64,000 bases of DNA, taken from the NCBI GenBank assembly GCA_009993005.1, contig JAACUH010000071.1, forward strand, positions 1 through 64,000. The letters run 5' to 3'. The notes under the pieces are model-generated. The model had not been told where the DNA came from. It saw only the letters and a program-made list of their open reading frames with translations, and ran no database searches. The first letter of the stretch is position 1. Each line of letters starts with the position of its first letter. The position numbers and the translations under genes are program-made. Below, in pieces: positions 33,140 to 48,167 of this stretch. This stretch comes from Rhodobacterales bacterium (GTDB taxonomy: Bacteria > Pseudomonadota > Alphaproteobacteria > Rhodobacterales > Rhodobacteraceae).

Positions 33140-33244
33140 GCCGCGCCGCTTGACGCCGCGCCGCTTGACGCCGCGCCGCTTGACGCCGCGCCGCTTGACG
33201 CCGCGCCGCTTGACGCCGCGCCGCTTGACGCCGCGCCGCTTGAC
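33140..33244. repeat. 15-bp tandem array in divergent promoter region
   Basis: Seven perfect copies of GCCGCGCCGCTTGAC (33140-33244), directly adjoining, no spacers. It lies between gcdH (minus) and moxR (plus), 56 bp before the moxR ATG. Each unit carries TTGAC, close to a -35 element. Confidence 0.95.
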
Positions 33245-34847: not shown

Positions 34848-36131
34848 TTGGCCCAATACGCGCCCCTTGTCCTGCCCGATGACGGCAAACTCGCCGACAA
34901 TATCACCCATTTCGCCCGCGCGCTGCGCCGCGCCGGGCTGCCGCTGGGAACCGGGCGGATCATGGATGCCCTGCGCGCGGTCGAGGTGGCGGGCTTTACC
35001 AGCCGCACCGATTTCTACTGGACGCTCCACGCCTGTTTCGTGACCCGCCCCGAACACCGCGCCACCTTTGCGCAGGTCTTTCGCCTGTTCTGGCGCGATC
35101 CGGCCTTTCTCGAACACATGATGTCGCTCTTGCTGCCGACCCTGCGCGGCACCCAGGACGAGACCCCAGCGCAGCCCGCCGAAAAGCGCGCGGCGCAGGC
35201 GCTGCTCGACGGGGCGGCGCCCGATCTGCCGCCACCCGCCGACAACGGCCTGTCCGAGATCGAGATCGACGCCCGCCAGACCGCCTCGGACGAGGAACGC
35301 CTGCGCCAGCTCGACTTTGAACAGATGAGCGCCGACGAGATGGCGCAGGCCCGTCGCATCCTCGCCCGGATGACGCTGCCGGTGCCGCCGCTCGCCAGCC
35401 GCCGGACCGAGGCGTGCGCCGGCCCGTTGCCGGACTGGCGCCGCACGCTGCGCCAGGCCTTGCGGCAGGGCGGCGAGATTCGCAGCTTTGCCACGCGCCG
35501 CCGCCGCACCCGCCGGCCCAACCTTGTCGTGCTGTGTGACATCTCCGGCTCGATGAGCCAGTATTCCCGTGCCGTGCTGCATTTCGTGCATGCGCTCAGC
35601 CAGTCGCGCGGCCAGGGTCGGGGCCAGGGTCGGGGTCAGGGCTGGGGGCAGGTCCATGCCTTTACCTTCGGCACGCGGCTCACCAATATCACCCGCCATC
35701 TGGCGACCCGCGACGTGGACGCGGCCCTGGCCGCCGCGGGGGCCGAGGCGCAGGACTGGTCCGGTGGCACCCGGATCGGCGCCTGCCTCGCGACCTTCAA
35801 CCGCGACTGGTCGCGCCGGGTGCTGGGGCAGGGCGCGGTGGTGCTGCTCATCACCGACGGGCTTGAGCGCGACAGCGACGGCGCGCTGGGCGCGGCGATG
35901 CAGCGGCTGCGGCTGTCGGCCCGGCAGGTGATCTGGCTGAACCCGCTGTTGCGCTGGGACGGTTTCGCACCGCGCGCGCGCGGGATCGCGCAGATGCTGC
36001 CGCATGTCACCAGCTTTCGTGCCGGGCACAACATCGCCTCGCTTGCCGGTCTGGCCGGGGCGCTGTCGGGCGCGGATAGGGGTGACCAAAAGGCCCGGCT
36101 GATGGCGCGTCTCGCCGGAGACCGAGCCTGA
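34848..36131 (+). CDS. coxE: VWA-domain protein, CoxE-like
   Basis: 427 residues, TTG start. The N-terminal helical region (FARALRRAGLPLGTGR) and a C-terminal von Willebrand A domain with MIDAS motif DISGSMS (Asp231), later SGGTRIG and ITDGLE. With CoxD it is thought to load or activate the Mo-Cu/Mo hydroxylase. An in-frame 12-bp repeat at 35610-35645 inserts GQGRGQGRGQGWGQ within the VWA domain, just after its first helix, probably a surface loop. Confidence 0.86.
   Translation: MAQYAPLVLPDDGKLADNITHFARALRRAGLPLGTGRIMDALRAVEVAGFTSRTDFYWTLHACFVTRPEHRATFAQVFRLFWRDPAFLEHMMSLLLPTLRGTQDETPAQPAEKRAAQALLDGAAPDLPPPADNGLSEIEIDARQTASDEERLRQLDFEQMSADEMAQARRILARMTLPVPPLASRRTEACAGPLPDWRRTLRQALRQGGEIRSFATRRRRTRRPNLVVLCDISGSMSQYSRAVLHFVHALSQSRGQGRGQGRGQGWGQVHAFTFGTRLTNITRHLATRDVDAALAAAGAEAQDWSGGTRIGACLATFNRDWSRRVLGQGAVVLLITDGLERDSDGALGAAMQRLRLSARQVIWLNPLLRWDGFAPRARGIAQMLPHVTSFRAGHNIASLAGLAGALSGADRGDQKARLMARLAGDRA
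35610..35645. repeat. 12-bp tandem repeat inside coxE
   Basis: Two exact copies of GGCCAGGGTCGG and a third diverged copy, encoding Gly-Gln-Gly-Arg repeats. Units of 12 bp keep the reading frame. Confidence 0.85.
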
Positions 36132-36610: not shown

Positions 36611-36630
36611 CATCTTTTGGCCAAAAATAT
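36611..36630 (-). repeat. left half of a dispersed repeat copy split by the IS element
   Basis: CATCTTTTGGCC then AAAAATAT (36623-36630, the left target duplicate). Joined across the element to 38716 onward (AAAAATAT then CCTCGCCGAAGG) it rebuilds one reverse-oriented copy of the dispersed repeat (variant ending TTGGCCAAAAGATG). Confidence 0.85.
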
Positions 36631-36716
36631 GGGAATTATATACTTAACTAGCCAAAAATAGCTTGATGGCGCTGCACATAATGGCTAGTTTAATCCCAAA
36701 AGCAGGGATTTAGTCT

Positions 36717-37640
36717 ATGTCCGATACACTTAGCACATTCGAGTTCTTCCAGAAGTTTCCAAACGAGAAAGCAGCGCGGACGTTCTTTGAAACTCGCCGT
36801 TGGGGCGACACACCTGTTTGCGGTCATTGCGGTTCTATCTATGTGTCGGAATGCAAAGATCACAAGCCAATGGCTTATCGTTGCAAGTCCTGCCGTAAGC
36901 ATTTCAGCGTCCGCACAGGCACGGTCCTGTCTGAAAGCCGCTTGCCCCTGCAAAAGTGGCTGCTGGCGATCTACATGCTCACCAGCGCACGTAAGGGCAT
37001 CCCTAGCATACAGATGGCCCGCGAATTGGGCGTTACTCAAAAGACCGCTTGGTTCCTTGCACAGCGCATCCGTGAGACGTGGCTGAACGATCAGGGCAAC
37101 AATGACATGGGCGATCATACGCAAGTTGATGAAACCTACATTGGCGGCAAAGAGGCCAACAAGCATGCCAGCAAGAAGCTGCATGCGGGTCGCGGCACAG
37201 TTGGCAAGACTGCTGTTGTTGGCATTCGCGACCAGCACAACCAAGTGCGGGCCATGCCAGCAAAAAACACCGGAGGCGCACTCCTGCGCTCTTTCGTGGC
37301 TAAGAACGCGCCAGAAGGCGCAACGGTTGTGACCGACATGCACAAGGGCTAAGACCTGCTGTCTACCCTTGGCTTCACACACAAGCGCGTGAACCACACG
37401 GTTGGCGAATATGTCCGCGACATGGCTCACACCAATGGCATTGTAAGCTTCTGGGCGCTTTTAAAGCGTGGCCACTACGGCGTCTATCACTACATGAGCG
37501 TCAAGCACCTGCATCGCTATGTGAACGAATTTTCGTTCCGCCATAACACAGCACGTGTTGGCACACTGAATTTTATCGGCATGACGATTGATCGGATGAC
37601 CGACAAGCGGCTGACTTACAAAGGGCTGATCAATGGCTGA
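36717..37640 (+). pseudogene. IS1595-family transposase with in-frame stop
   Basis: Zinc-ribbon N-terminus (CGHCGS at about residue 33, CKSCRKHFS at about 59), then the ISXO2-type DDE domain: VDETYIGGKE, VVTDMHKG. A TAA at 37350-37352 follows HKG where the family usually has Tyr; the same frame then continues to 37640. The third acidic position, normally Glu in NGIESFW, reads NGIVSFW (GTA). One nonsense and one probable catalytic change make it inactive unless read through. It overlaps the passenger start by 8 bp. Confidence 0.88.
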
Positions 37641-38658
37641 CGACAAAAAAGGCCTGATTGAATCTATCGACGCATCGTTCGACGACGTAGTTTGGGCCAT
37701 CGCACCAAAAAACAACCGACGCAGGAAATCCGAAGATTTCATACCAGAATCAGTGGGCCCCGAGAATGAGGCCACACATCGCGGGACACTGCGTATCGGC
37801 TCTGTCCAAATACCCTGCGCGGTACTGCGCGATGGTACGAGACTCTTGTCAGAGAATGGCATCGCAAATGCGCTTGGAGGAAGGAGCGGCGCGGCGAAAC
37901 GCCTGAAAACTGCCGCTGCAGAGGGTGGGGCCCATATCCCCGTTTTTCTGGCGGCAAAGAGTCTTTCTCCCTATGTTACCAAAGAGTTAGCCGATGGGCC
38001 CCTAAAGCCGGTTTCCTACATTTCCGGAGGGTCTGAGGTTGTCGGGTATCAAGCAGAAGCACTGCCGGAAATCTGCAACATCTGGCTTCAAGCAAGGCAG
38101 GATGGAGTGCTCAGCGAACAGCAGAATGATCGAGCGCAAGCCGCTGAAATCGTCATGCGAGGTCTCGCAAATCTTGGTGTCATTGCACTGATTGACGAGG
38201 CTACCGGCTATCAAGACACGCGTGACAGAGACGCCCTTCAAGCAATACTGGACAAGTACCTGCAGAAAGAATTCGCAGCATGGGCGAAGCGCTTCCCTGA
38301 CGCGTTTTATCGTGAGATATTCCGGCTTCGTGGCTGGAGTTGGAATGCAATGTCAGTTGCTCGACCCGGCGTCGTCGGGCGATACACCAACGACATCGTT
38401 TACGAACGACTTGCACCAGGGATTCTTGATGAATTGCAACGATTGAACCCGAATCAAGATGAAAGAGGGCGCGCACGGAAGCACCAACAATTTCTGACTG
38501 ATGATATTGGGCACCCGGCGCTCGCACAGCATCTTCATGCTGTCATAGGCTTGATGCGCGCATCGGCAACCTGGGAACAGTTCAAGTCCCTACTGGACAG
38601 AGCCTTCCCCAAAAAGGGTACGCAACTGGAACTGCTGCTTCCTGAAGACTACCAGTGA
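37633..38658 (+). CDS. P63C-domain protein, IS passenger gene
   Basis: 341 residues, intact. The P63C signature is seen in IPCAVLRDGTRLLSENGI and ALIDEATGYQDTRDRDALQAI, with FAAWAKRFPDAFYREIFRLRGW following. P63C domains occur in phage and mobile-element proteins, some thought to bind DNA or act in exclusion; no enzyme activity is established. The ATG lies inside the last codons of the transposase (ATGGCTGA overlap), so its translation was coupled to the transposase. It is carried between the IS ends and so is mobile cargo. Confidence 0.87.
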   Translation: MADDKKGLIESIDASFDDVVWAIAPKNNRRRKSEDFIPESVGPENEATHRGTLRIGSVQIPCAVLRDGTRLLSENGIANALGGRSGAAKRLKTAAAEGGAHIPVFLAAKSLSPYVTKELADGPLKPVSYISGGSEVVGYQAEALPEICNIWLQARQDGVLSEQQNDRAQAAEIVMRGLANLGVIALIDEATGYQDTRDRDALQAILDKYLQKEFAAWAKRFPDAFYREIFRLRGWSWNAMSVARPGVVGRYTNDIVYERLAPGILDELQRLNPNQDERGRARKHQQFLTDDIGHPALAQHLHAVIGLMRASATWEQFKSLLDRAFPKKGTQLELLLPEDYQ

Positions 38659-38662
38659 AGGT

Positions 38663-38683
38663 GGGCCCCACGGGCCCGCTTTC
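38663..38683 (+). terminator. possible terminator after the passenger gene
   Basis: GGGCCC-CAC-GGGCCC followed by GCTTTCC, 5 bp past the passenger stop and just inside the right IS end. The T run is short. Confidence 0.5.
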
Positions 38684-38767
38684 CTGTCCTCTGGCTAGTT
38701 AGGTATATAGGCCCCAAAAATATCCTCGCCGAAGGCAAGACTGGCCAGCGTTGCCCCAAAGGGTTCC

Positions 38768-38800: not shown

Positions 38801-38807
38801 CGACAGG

Positions 38808-38911
38808 GGCCGGGCCCCGCGGCCGGGCCCCGCGGCCGGGCCCAGCGGCCGGGCCCCGCGGCCGGGCCCCGCGGCCGGGCCCCGCGGCCGGGCCCAGCGG
38901 CCGGGCCGGCC
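38808..38911. repeat. 13-bp GC-rich tandem array upstream of xdhC
   Basis: Seven units of GGCCGGGCCCCGC (two with one A) plus a diverged eighth. Each unit is nearly self-complementary, so the array could fold into strong hairpins. It lies 63 bp before the xdhC start. Confidence 0.93.
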
Positions 38912-38974: not shown

Positions 38975-40033
38975 ATGGCAAGCGGCGGGCCGGCACTGGC
39001 TGGCGAGGATATTCCCGCACTGGCGCTGGCCTGGCATGCGGCGGGGCGGGGCGCGGTGCTGGCCACCGTGATCGAGACCTGGGGGTCGGCGCCGCGCCCG
39101 GTGGGCAGTCAGCTTGTCATCGACCGGGACGGCGCGATGGAGGGGTCGGTCTCGGGTGGGTGCGTCGAGGGCGCGGTTGTCACCGAGGCCATCGAGGCCC
39201 TGGCAGATGGCGCCGCGCGGCTGCTTGAGTTCGGTGTGAGCGATGATGATGCCTTTGCGGTGGGTCTGGCCTGCGGCGGGCGGATTCGGGTGCTGGTCGA
39301 GCCGGTGGGCGGGGCGCTGCCGGTGGCGCTGCTGGGCGAACTCGTTGCGGCCCGCGCGGCGCGCAGGCCGGTGGCGCTGGTCGCTGAACTGGCCGGGCCC
39401 GGCCGGCGGCTCGAGGCGCGCGCGGCCTTTGCGGAGCGTTTTCGCCTGGACCGGTCCGGCATCACCGAGGATGGGCAGAGCTTTGTCGCGGTCCACAATC
39501 CGCCCCTGCGGATGGTCATCGTGGGCGCGGTGCATATCGCGCAGCCGCTGGTCGGCATGGCGCGCGCCTGTGGCTATGACCCGGTGATCGTCGATCCACG
39601 CCCCGCCTTTGGCGCGCAGGCGCGTTTTCCCGGTGAGGTGATCCTTGACGACTGGCCCGATGCGGCGCTGGCCGCGCAGGGGCTCGACGCGCGCACCGCG
39701 GTGGTCACGCTCACCCATGACCCCAAGCTCGACGACCCGGCGATACTTTGCGCGTTGGCGTCCGATGTGTTCTACCTCGGCTGTCTGGGCTCGACCCGGA
39801 CCCATGCCAAACGGCTGGACCGTCTGCGCGCCGCCGGTGTGAGTGCGGCGCAGATCGCGCGGATCCATGCGCCTGTGGGGCTCGACATCGGCGCGCGCAG
39901 CCCGGCCGAGATTGCGGTGAGCATCATGGCGCAGGTCACCGCCTGCCTGCGGCAGGGCATGGTGCCGGACATGCGGCAGGACATGCGGCCGGACATGCGG
40001 CAGGACATGCGGCGGGACATGCGGCGGGCATGA
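38975..40033 (+). CDS. xdhC: XdhC/CoxF-family molybdenum hydroxylase maturation protein
   Basis: 352 residues from ATG 38975 (GGAGGAGAGG just upstream). XdhC N-domain: VIETWGSAPRPVGSQL, SVSGGCVEGAV with the conserved Cys; Rossmann C-domain: LRMVIVGAVHIAQPL and VFYLGCLGSTRTHAKR. These proteins bind molybdopterin and insert or sulfurate the Mo cofactor of hydroxylases, fitting the coxSLM genes downstream. The C-terminus is replaced or extended by 12-bp repeats giving MRQD/MRPD/MRRD units, and its stop overlaps the next ATG (ATGA). Confidence 0.88.
   Translation: MASGGPALAGEDIPALALAWHAAGRGAVLATVIETWGSAPRPVGSQLVIDRDGAMEGSVSGGCVEGAVVTEAIEALADGAARLLEFGVSDDDAFAVGLACGGRIRVLVEPVGGALPVALLGELVAARAARRPVALVAELAGPGRRLEARAAFAERFRLDRSGITEDGQSFVAVHNPPLRMVIVGAVHIAQPLVGMARACGYDPVIVDPRPAFGAQARFPGEVILDDWPDAALAAQGLDARTAVVTLTHDPKLDDPAILCALASDVFYLGCLGSTRTHAKRLDRLRAAGVSAAQIARIHAPVGLDIGARSPAEIAVSIMAQVTACLRQGMVPDMRQDMRPDMRQDMRRDMRRA
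39959..40029. repeat. 12-bp tandem repeat at the 3' end of xdhC
   Basis: Six units of the type ATGCGGCAGGAC (39959-40029), encoding four-residue repeats and each carrying an in-frame ATG. The next gene starts with ATGAGG right after the last unit, so the array occupies the ribosome-binding region of the downstream gene. Confidence 0.88.
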
Positions 40034-46504: not shown

Positions 46505-47047
46505 TTATTTCGACGGCCCGATCATCATGACCATCTGACGCCCTTCGAGGCGCGGCATGCTCTCGACCTTGCCGACCTCTTTCACGTCCTCGGCGACCCG
46601 CTCGAGCAGCAGCCGCCCGAGGTCCTGGTGCGCCATCTCGCGCCCGCGAAAGCGTAGCGTGATCTTGCACTTGTCGCCATTCTCGAGAAACTTGAACACC
46701 GAACGCATCTTGACTTCGTAATCATGGGTGTCGGTGTTCGGGCGGAACTTGACCTCCTTGATCTCGATGACCTTCTGGTTCTTGCGGGCCTCGGCCTCTT
46801 TCTTCTGGCTCTCGTACTTGAATTTGCCGAAGTCCATGATCTTGCAGACCGGCGGAACCGCGTTGGGAGAAATCTCGACCAGGTCCAGTCCGGCCTCTTC
46901 GGCCATCACGAGCGCGCGTTCCGCCGAAACGACGCCGACGTTTTCGCCGTCCACGCCGATCAGTCGAATGTCAGAGCCCCGGATGCGTTCGTTGATCCTG
47001 GGGCCGGTCTCACGCACCGGGGGTGCGTTGTGGGGTCTGCGGGCTAT
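46505..47047 (-). CDS. infC: translation initiation factor IF-3 with apparent AUA start
   Basis: 180 residues. IF3 N-domain [20 protein letters not shown], linker with [19 protein letters not shown]-domain [16 protein letters not shown] and [21 protein letters not shown]. The family N-terminus ([15 protein letters not shown]) is coded from an ATA at 47047 with AGAGGA 8 nt upstream. The nearest conventional start, GTG 47017, would remove ten conserved residues. Rare start codons in infC are a known autoregulatory device because IF-3 rejects them. No rpmI/rplT follows. Confidence 0.92.
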
Positions 47048-47264
47048 GGCCTGTGTCCTCTCGGTTGTTGAACTGTCGCGGGCGCAGGGTAATCTTGCAG
47101 CGGGCCCGGTTCAAGGCGCAAAAACAGGGCAAATCCGGTTTGGCCGCTTCCGACGCGGGCCTGCCACATGTTTCAATGGTCCTTTTCAACGTGCAGTCGT
47201 TCTGACATATGACGGGCGAGGGCCCGCCTGGGGGTCTGCCAAATGTATTTGGAAGGACAGGAAG

Positions 47265-48167
47265 ATGAGAGCGCTAATCATTGTCGTGCTGGTCGCGGTT
47301 CTGGGTTTTTTCGGTTATCAGTATGCGTCCAACGGCCGTACGCCAGCGGATGTCTTCAGCGGCCGTGATCCCGTAGCCGAAGCCGCCGCCGCCGCCGCCG
47401 CCGAAGCCGCTGCGGCCGCCGAAGCCGCCGCCGCCGCAACGGCCGCCGCTGCCGAAGCTGCCGCCGCCGAAGCTGCCGCCGCAACCGAAGCTGCCGCCGC
47501 CGAAGCCGCTGCCGCAACCGAAGCCGCCGCCGCCGAAGCCGCTGCCGCTGTCGAAGGCGCCGTCGAAGGCGCCGTCGAAGGCGCTGTCGAAGGCGCCGTC
47601 GAGGATGCCGCCGCCGCCGTCGAAGGCGTCGTCGATGACGCTGCCGCCGCCGAAGCCGCCGCTGCCGAGGCCGCCGCTGCCGCCGAAGCCGCCGCCGCCG
47701 AGGCCGCCGCTGCCGCCGAAGCTGCCACCGCCGCGGCCGAAGCCGCTGCCGAAGCCGAAGCCGCTGCCGCCGCCGAAGCCGCCGCCGCTGCCGAAGCTGC
47801 CGCCGGCGAAGCCGCCGCCGCTGCCGAAGCCGAAGCGGCTGCTGCCGCCGAAGCCGCTGCCGCCGCAGCCGCTGCTGCCGAAGCCGAAGCCGCTGCTGCC
47901 GAAGCCGAAGCCGCTGCTGCCGCCGAAGCCGCTGCCGCCGAAGCTGCTGCCGCCGCCACCGACGCCGTCGAAGCGGCCGCCGTGCCGCTCGACCAGCTGC
48001 TCGACCCGGCCAACCTCAACGTCGATGCGATCGGCGCCGCCATCGACGCCTCGGCGCTTGACGATGCGGTCAAGACCCAGCTCAAGAACGCGCTGAACCT
48101 CGCCAAGGACCGCCCGACGCTGCTGCCCGATGTGCTGACCCGCATCCGCACGCTGCTCGAAGGCTGA
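47265..48167 (+). CDS. membrane-anchored Ala/Glu-repeat protein
   Basis: 300 residues. One N-terminal membrane helix (IIVVLVAVLGFFGYQ), then about 200 residues of nearly pure Ala/Glu (AAAAEAAAAEAAA) with a VEGAVEGAVEGA patch, then a 60-residue C-terminal helical domain (VPLDQLLDPANLNVDAIGAAI...). The repeat should be a long rigid alpha helix extending into the periplasm. The unit pattern is based on GCCGCCGAA codons. GGAAGGACAGGAAG precedes the ATG at 47265. The C-terminal domain recurs in my memory of Rhodobacterales proteins but has no assigned role. Confidence 0.82.
   Translation: MRALIIVVLVAVLGFFGYQYASNGRTPADVFSGRDPVAEAAAAAAAEAAAAAEAAAAATAAAAEAAAAEAAAATEAAAAEAAAATEAAAAEAAAAVEGAVEGAVEGAVEGAVEDAAAAVEGVVDDAAAAEAAAAEAAAAAEAAAAEAAAAAEAATAAAEAAAEAEAAAAAEAAAAAEAAAGEAAAAAEAEAAAAAEAAAAAAAAAEAEAAAAEAEAAAAAEAAAAEAAAAATDAVEAAAVPLDQLLDPANLNVDAIGAAIDASALDDAVKTQLKNALNLAKDRPTLLPDVLTRIRTLLEG

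Follow-up and report, generated by a model that had tools for sequence, protein, structure and literature searches.

The window considered here, the whole 64-kb stretch of contig JAACUH010000071.1 from a Rhodobacterales bacterium, carries one complete element of the IS1595 family (2,085 bp, 36631-38715), which holds both a transposase gene and, overlapping its end, a cargo gene for a protein with a P63C domain. The original prediction had described an intact P63C passenger behind a broken transposase; the complete element ends and the target-site duplication come in addition to what it had listed. In related elements, the gene at the same place begins with the same short N-terminal peptide, here called the tag, and continues with one of several unrelated bodies, and that a clade of elements with tagged, exchangeable cargo exists can be stated with high confidence. 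Since sister elements swap in known anti-phage families behind the same tag, P63C is probably anti-phage as well, and on balance we favour the view that it is a phage-exclusion protein, which a very small transposon carries as a tagged cargo open to exchange. The locus is composed as follows, with the strand in brackets:

36623-36630 (no strand): left target-site duplication of 8 bp, AAAAATAT, identical to 38716-38723.
36631-36653 (+): left terminal inverted repeat of 23 bp, 3 mismatches against the consensus set from relatives.
36646-36691 (+): putative promoter of the transposase gene, its -10 covered by an inverted, operator-like repeat of the end core (by eye).
36717-37640 (+): IS1595-family transposase gene, broken (Pfam and alignment: stop for Y212, E243V).
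37620-37625 (+): Shine-Dalgarno-like AAAGGG for the cargo gene, within the 3' end of the transposase gene (by eye).
37633-38658 (+): cargo gene for the tagged P63C protein of 341 residues (open reading frame (ORF), Pfam).
37633-37713 (+): element-specific N-terminal tag, residues 1-27 (hidden Markov model (HMM) built without the window, E 3.2e-8).
37765-38655 (+): exchangeable body, residues 45-341, phrog_2384 (E 6e-104 over residues 45-338).
38245-38523 (+): P63C domain, residues 205-297 (PF10546).
38693-38715 (-): right terminal inverted repeat of 23 bp, 1 mismatch against the consensus set from relatives.
38716-38723 (no strand): right target-site duplication of 8 bp, AAAAATAT, identical to 36623-36630.

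Related elements have been collected by non-exhaustive searches. A scan with the cargo has found 5 loci in genome contigs and 2 in viral contigs, and in the family sample the cargo has been matched in 8 of 295 genomes (own included), in two of them only via its first 83 or 34 residues. The transposase has been matched in 14/295 genomes of the family, 12/385 of the class, 5/398 of the phylum and 6/244 of the order sample, where E-values are set per search, the own genome is included and the samples overlap. Viral contigs have yielded 11 loci via the transposase and 6 via the end sequence; L075, L076 and L078 have the end sequence and no transposase match, and L078 shows a weak tag-like match (E 0.0005). 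Plasmid searches with element, cargo and transposase have returned one remnant (L113), and P63C-like genes of less than 60% identity have turned up in 17 records. After removal of repeats (L009/L016 of L003; L017, L020, L018 and L019 of L012, L013, L014 and L015; L069 with the same cargo as L068; L001/L021 of the window; L084/L086/L090/L092/L097 of L066/L063/L062/L064/L074) and of damaged or truncated copies (L010, L011, L008, L022, L025, L071/L073, L077, L113), 22 elements including the window have been left, one of them doubtful. Both ends are known in 15 elements; in 10 of them the predicted ends are flanked by an exact 8-bp duplication, and moving one end by one base gives L064 one too; two of the ten are runs of T or of A with T and weak evidence alone. 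The cargo start codon lies 5 bases ahead of the transposase stop codon in the window, with an 8-base overlap of the genes (37633-37640), and this offset of -5 is found in 19 of the 22 elements, the others having -11 (L065, L070) or a start near the stop (L067).

The tag comprises ~26 residues, K-K-x-x-I-E-P-I-[DN]-A-x-F-[DE]-[DE]-V-V-x-A, at the start of the gene behind the transposase, and its statistics refer to 21 elements, with L067 left out. When the tag HMM has been built from the other 20 elements and run against the six frames of each locus (for the window of the whole 64 kb), all 21 left-out cargos have come out as the best match of their own locus (E 1.2e-13 to 0.038, the weakest being L070 with 0.038 and L072 with 0.0013), and in the 64 kb of the window the cargo is the only match listed. 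In 20 control loci, where the P63C or BstA genes are untagged, no tag match is better than E 6.5; 13 phage P63C loci and 3 other loci tested are without the tag. In 35 loci of more distant kinship (L023-L059 except L025 and L040), whose transposases have 39-51% identity by tblastn, no match is significant (best E 5.8); the L070 transposase is 48% identical, yet its tag match is significant. A strict DNA pattern of the tag has found nothing in viral contigs, where it has also missed known tagged elements, and a relaxed one has given 14 loci, 4 with a transposase directly upstream (all known) and 10 judged unrelated by eye. Each residue of I-E-P-I is conserved in 18-20 of the 21 tags and the first V in 19, and the proportions of nonsynonymous (pN, 0.39) and synonymous differences (pS, 0.80) give a pN/pS of 0.49 (bootstrap 0.36-0.60; first codons excluded), a rough value with synonymous sites near saturation. 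As far as sequences can tell, the tag is under selection as a protein; its predicted structure would be disordered apart from one short helix, predicted with low confidence, at residues 16-23. In phages and other contigs, P63C proteins without the tag begin in 9 of 12 aligned cases (L098, L099, L100, L101, L108, L109, L005, L006, L095) with another stretch, K-G-G-x-A-R-A-x-x-L-T-x-E-E-R-x-E-I-A-x-x-A-A-x-R-W, or its relic, which looks like a second interchangeable N-terminal tag.

Behind the tag, the 22 elements carry P63C bodies (13), BstA bodies (4), KilA-N proteins with a BstA C-terminus (3) and restriction-modification proteins (2). All 13 P63C bodies (window, L012, L013, L060 and nine others) are above the Pfam gathering score. 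The BstA bodies of L014, L015, L061 and L074 match the PADLOC BstA model with E 3.1e-109 to 2.2e-119, and the first three match phrog_6287 with E 9.7e-86 to 9.2e-108; a search for relatives of the L074 body in viral contigs has returned L074 alone. In the KilA-N bodies of L064, L065 and L072, BstA is matched in the C-terminal half only (PADLOC E 1.8e-12, 3.1e-9 and 6.9e-18), phrog_6287 matching L064 and L072 as well. L070 codes for a tagged D12 adenine methylase (PF02086, E 5.8e-29) followed by a HaeIII-type restriction enzyme (PF09556, E 4.1e-76), and L067 for a type I specificity-like protein and, behind it, an N6 methylase whose N-terminus is HsdR-like. For all nine bodies other than P63C the matches are thus to families of anti-phage systems, and for three of these bodies the match is partial. 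A DNA methylase gene directly follows the transposase gene in at least 6 of the 35 distant loci (L035, L041, L047, L048, L049, L057), as found with Pfam on 10 of 23 ORFs of at least 100 residues (an ORF set counting 36 loci, including L025, a truncated close relative); such cargo therefore extends beyond the tagged clade. Behind the cargo of L062, L063 and L080 stands a PemK/MazF-type toxin gene (Pfam for the first two, by resemblance for L080).

The tag and the body have had different histories. Transposase identity correlates with tag identity, both in the 13 P63C elements (Mantel r 0.35, p 0.009) and in the 20 elements that combine a tag and a full transposase (r 0.44, p 0.002), whereas it does not correlate with P63C body identity (r -0.12, p 0.77; 13 P63C elements); between tag and body no clear correlation has been found (r 0.16, p 0.11). 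It follows that the tag stays with the transposase and the body gets replaced. The exchange is seen in single pairs: L003 and L012 are 90% identical in the transposase and 36% in the body, L062 and L080 87% and 39%, the window and L002 66% and 83%, and the transposases of L012 and L014, which carry P63C and BstA, respectively, are 92% identical. Behind the cargo, L003 and L012 have ~415 bp in common (85% DNA identity, though their P63C bodies are 36% identical), which hold no ORF above 59 residues and are perhaps a non-coding part of the element; L013 and L060 have a second gene in common there (80% DNA identity, beginning LAKKYLFADEAGCFTF), for which the L060 copy, cut by the locus end, gives no Pfam match at E 0.01.

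In the window, the transposase is defective. Its frame matches the IS1595 Zn ribbon (PF12760, E 5.3e-9) ahead of, and the IS1595 DDE domain (PF12762, E 1.1e-10 and 3.3e-18) on both sides of, a single internal stop (TAA at 37350-37352) that replaces Y212, and a relative's transposase (L009) matches NF033547 with E 6.4e-61. The second change is E243V (37443-37445), which turns the TNGIESFW of relatives into TNGIVSFW and affects what we take to be the catalytic E. The stop and the probable active-site change of the original prediction have thereby been located, and its intact passenger has been found as described, open over 341 codons with a full P63C domain; the window element is a member of IS1595 by descent and presumably dead as a mover. 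Among 19 aligned transposases (L067, L070 and L074 left out), the window differs at 2 of 115 sites identical in the other 18, namely these two. When each of the other elements is left out instead, it shows 0-7 differences of this kind; apart from the nature of its two changes, the window transposase is thus no more decayed than usual.

Selection for the cargo, which the original prediction had read from its conservation beside a decaying mover, has found no support in the window copy. A random substitution has a probability of ~0.295 to alter an invariant transposase site and of ~0.038 to create a cargo stop. After 2-7 neutral transposase substitutions the cargo would be free of new stops with a probability of 0.92-0.74; after 10-20 it would be so with 0.65-0.42, but at most two changes at constrained sites are then unlikely (0.40-0.04). 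Since a stop-free cargo is probable by chance, its intactness is uninformative on selection after the break. As far as can be judged without a near-identical active copy, none of which has been found in the own genome, the genus (one genome) or the family sample (295 genomes), the transposase differs by its two changes only, one of the two circumstances that had been named in advance as speaking against such selection. Among other copies, damaged cargos have been found in L010 (tag and body out of frame with each other), L011 (5'-truncated) and L008 (a fragment). A broken transposase with an intact cargo occurs in the window and in L074, in which only transposase residues 243-304 are left; L071/L073 (one contig) have a broken transposase and no cargo in ~690 bases before the contig end, and the plasmid remnant L113 a broken transposase and no annotated cargo. 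A comparison of nonsynonymous and synonymous change has shown constraint on the P63C body (pN 0.07-0.14 vs. pS 0.77-0.90, four elements); by these alignments, the long-term constraint is real, but it is a property of the family and not of the window copy.

The P63C domain of the window protein matches its profile completely (positions 1-93 of 93, E 7.2e-32, 110.3 bits against a gathering cutoff of 26.1). A natural counterpart of the body is found in a viral contig (L007), where an untagged homologue with 81% identity begins at the tag-body junction, next to ORFs of Bro-N/ORF6N and Arc types (by eye); no related transposase has been found in this 10.9-kb stretch. The structure model that had been suggested has been built, and a fold search with it against viral proteins has given 3 matches at E 0.001 or better, the one named protein being Mx8 p63 (E 7e-8). 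The window protein itself matches neither a PADLOC BstA model nor phrog_6287 (at E 0.01), and a sequence search of solved structures has given E 0.77 at best. Homology of the P63C body to BstA has been considered and rejected: a first profile comparison gave 97%, but with the shared tag on both sides, and since removal of the tag has left the comparison weak, we do not claim it. A BstA-type structure model has been unusable (pLDDT, the predicted local distance difference test, 37).

By tblastn, P63C occurs in 46 phage records, and the surroundings have been inspected in 13 distinct, hand-picked ones. In 4 of the 13 phages, P63C follows a repressor or repressor-like gene directly and on its strand (ST104, SI8, Midgardsormr38 and Kuwabara; in Midgardsormr38 the upstream gene is annotated only as a transcriptional regulator and is divergent from a Cro-like gene). 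In the P22-like ST104 and SI8 it lies between the repressor and the antitermination gene, which is the place of bstA in BTP1. Six further phages (SEN34, DC1, Petra, Barco, Lodos, Javan441) have it on the repressor or integrase strand, or alone against its neighbours. BstA inhibits the replication of phage DNA, resembles KilA-N in its N-terminal half and is often found downstream of prophage repressors, as given in the accessible part of PMC8585504, where the cI-n interval also appears as a hotspot of mosaic diversity which in lambda holds rexAB. BstA relatives of D14H and PseuP_222 stand behind the CI gene with one gene between, and in RCIP0114 behind an unnamed gene. The guess of the original prediction that the cargo serves the exclusion of other elements gains support from the BstA, KilA-N/BstA and restriction-modification genes in the same cargo slot and from the bstA slot in phages.

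From these observations we infer how the cargo might work. The clade would be a minimal carrier of phage-exclusion genes, and P63C would act in the way of BstA or RexAB, made constitutively. In a first step, replicating phage DNA would be recognised by the N-terminal, DNA-binding-like half of the protein, as suggested by its weak structural likeness to Bro-N proteins (E 0.033 and worse); in a second step, the P63C half, as the effector, would abort the infection. The tag may tie the cargo to the element, either by docking to the transposase or a promoter complex, or by securing a translation start within the transposase gene. Expression would start from the element promoter and use the Shine-Dalgarno-like run in the transposase 3' end, a purine-rich, ribosome-site-like run being present at about the same position in most listed elements; in this way the cargo may still be translated despite the transposase stop. 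The end core AACTAGCCA (36646-36654) recurs inverted as TGGCTAGTT (36682-36690) over the proposed -10, with a -35-like TTGATG at 36663-36668 (all by eye), and an operator-like GGCTA motif lies inside the left ends of 20 of 21 elements; a consensus promoter scan has not listed this promoter and has given two other sites, about the chance number. A bolder version, which we put forward tentatively and would not ourselves expect to hold in full, is that this clade of 2-3 kb plugs unrelated anti-phage proteins via one docking peptide into a common element-borne circuit and constitutes a polymorphic defence cassette; P63C would then be a new abortive-infection family, and the tag an adaptor to the transposase or promoter complex which holds back or sets off the cargo and serves self-immunity from the place that aba has in BTP1 bstA.

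Several observations weigh against a defence function of P63C. The eight P63C cargos run through PADLOC, the window included, have given no match, and to our knowledge no defence assay of P63C has been reported. Profiles of P63C and BstA without the tag reach an hhalign probability of 6% (E 0.006) and are not demonstrably homologous. The window model is mediocre (pLDDT 65.7; predicted template modelling score 0.45), and its search of the PDB has given no fold at E 0.001 (best 0.61). The three KilA-N bodies, whose part in defence is presumed, match BstA partially; transposases diverge most in the two restriction-modification members, at 44-64% identity to the others, the tag of L067 has been recognised by eye only (HMM E 8), and L070 has the weakest left-out tag score. 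In 3 of the 13 phages, the setting gives no argument for a lysogeny gene: in Pkon1, P63C lies on the strand of the surrounding genes and adjoins Arc and KilA-N genes; in Stx phage ST2-8624, it lies on the lytic strand one gene from an anti-repressor; and in Mx8, p63 carries the label of a potential antirepressor. The Stx phage locus also speaks for an unlikely competitor, in which P63C is a phage-type antirepressor or transcription regulator of the element promoter or of a prophage switch, and the company of BstA reflects shared phage ancestry and not function. Mx8 p63 is annotated as anti-repressor Ant, a 'potential antirepressor', the window protein partially matches phrog_2899 Ant (E 8.8e-11, residues 218-299) and phrog_518 Rha (E 3.9e-4, residues 265-335), and named antirepressor, repressor-domain and Bro-N proteins appear in the viral fold search from E 0.033 on. 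However, a gene behind the repressor on the same strand, as in the four phages, is expected to be made together with it in lysogens, where an antirepressor would destroy lysogeny; such an arrangement makes an antirepressor unlikely and fits exclusion, and the swapped bodies include BstA and a methylase with its restriction enzyme, which are not antirepressors.

The cargo could also regulate transposition, as an inhibitor or target selector whose tag docks to the transposase and whose bodies bind DNA. The co-inheritance of tag and transposase, the overlap of the two genes, and the operator-like inverted end core over the proposed promoter with GGCTA in nearly all left ends would agree with this, but for restriction-modification bodies, a HaeIII-type endonuclease and a PemK toxin no role in transposition is apparent, and the distant IS1595-type transposases of the 35 loci manage without the tag; we regard such a role as quite improbable. 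That the cargo is neutral baggage, with the tag left over from a first cargo gene and kept for a working translation start, appears very improbable: the purine runs ahead of the start and the dead element of the window would suit it, but the tag is conserved as a protein far past the start codon, as its I-E-P-I, first V and pN/pS show, and the four P63C bodies are strongly constrained. The exclusion of phages by P63C remains the explanation that we prefer.

Passenger genes occur in the IS1595 family. The element is like other members in its Zn ribbon and IS1595 DDE domains, its 8-bp duplication and its inverted ends starting with GGG, and 8-bp duplications and the Zn ribbon are named as family traits in the accessible part of PMC8101967; unlike the members described there with a single transposase gene, it has a second, tagged, exchangeable gene overlapping the transposase gene. 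BstA of prophages such as BTP1 is present as the body in four sister elements, and P63C can take the bstA slot of phages, but the window protein is not BstA, and the element-borne BstA carries the tag at the position of the short native start of BTP1 BstA, a stretch that in BTP1 overlaps the aba self-immunity site (PMC8585504, accessible part). RexAB of phage lambda is comparable as a case of exclusion genes in the cI-n interval (same part of that source). To phage P63C proteins (phrog_2384; ST104 ORF23, SEN34), the body is homologous over almost its full length, whereas the tag is absent from the 13 phage loci; 9 of 12 aligned untagged proteins have the other N-terminal stretch or its relic. 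Tn7-like transposons likewise carry defence genes as cargo (PMC8649781, as far as accessible), but the elements here differ in their size of ~2-3 kb, their one transposase, a cargo that is often just one protein, and a tag that unrelated cargos share. The open-licence literature searched, including the accessible part of PMC6536676, settles no function of P63C, in line with the original prediction, and holds no paper on BstA together with P63C or on antirepressor, p63 and Mx8 together; nor has a description of the tag or the cargo slot been found there, the accessible parts of PMC8101967, PMC6211672 and PMC7371123 included.

In the host genome assembly (3.4 Mb, 196 contigs), the cargo is present in one copy, and a second IS1595-type transposase fragment (G000:C178:8-355) is weak and broken, with 31% identity and one TGA. 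The element is flanked by a CoxE-like gene (34848-36131) on one side and an XdhC/CoxI-like gene (~38975-40033) on the other, and genes for molybdenum-hydroxylase subunits are close by; among the named neighbours, the only ones checked, no gene split by it has been seen. An Rfam scan of the window has given no match. ARAGORN calls a tRNA-Pro at 38807-38904 (-), probably falsely, on a GC-rich 13-bp tandem repeat (38808-38907). Seven perfect 15-bp copies of GCCGCGCCGCTTGAC lie at 33140-33244, with an acyl-CoA dehydrogenase-like gene (by eye) on one side and an AAA ATPase gene on the other, and ~600 bp of GCC/GAA-rich tandem repeats at 47371-47988 would code for Ala and Glu if read in the frame of an ORF of 479 residues (46728-48167).

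The finding places P63C where BstA, a demonstrated abortive-infection protein, sits, in two contexts, the cargo slot of the elements and the repressor slot of some phages, which makes the function of P63C directly testable. The short peptide conserved across unrelated cargos calls for a mechanism, and it provides a search handle for undescribed defence genes downstream of it. The clade shows that anti-phage genes can spread on something of the size of an insertion sequence.

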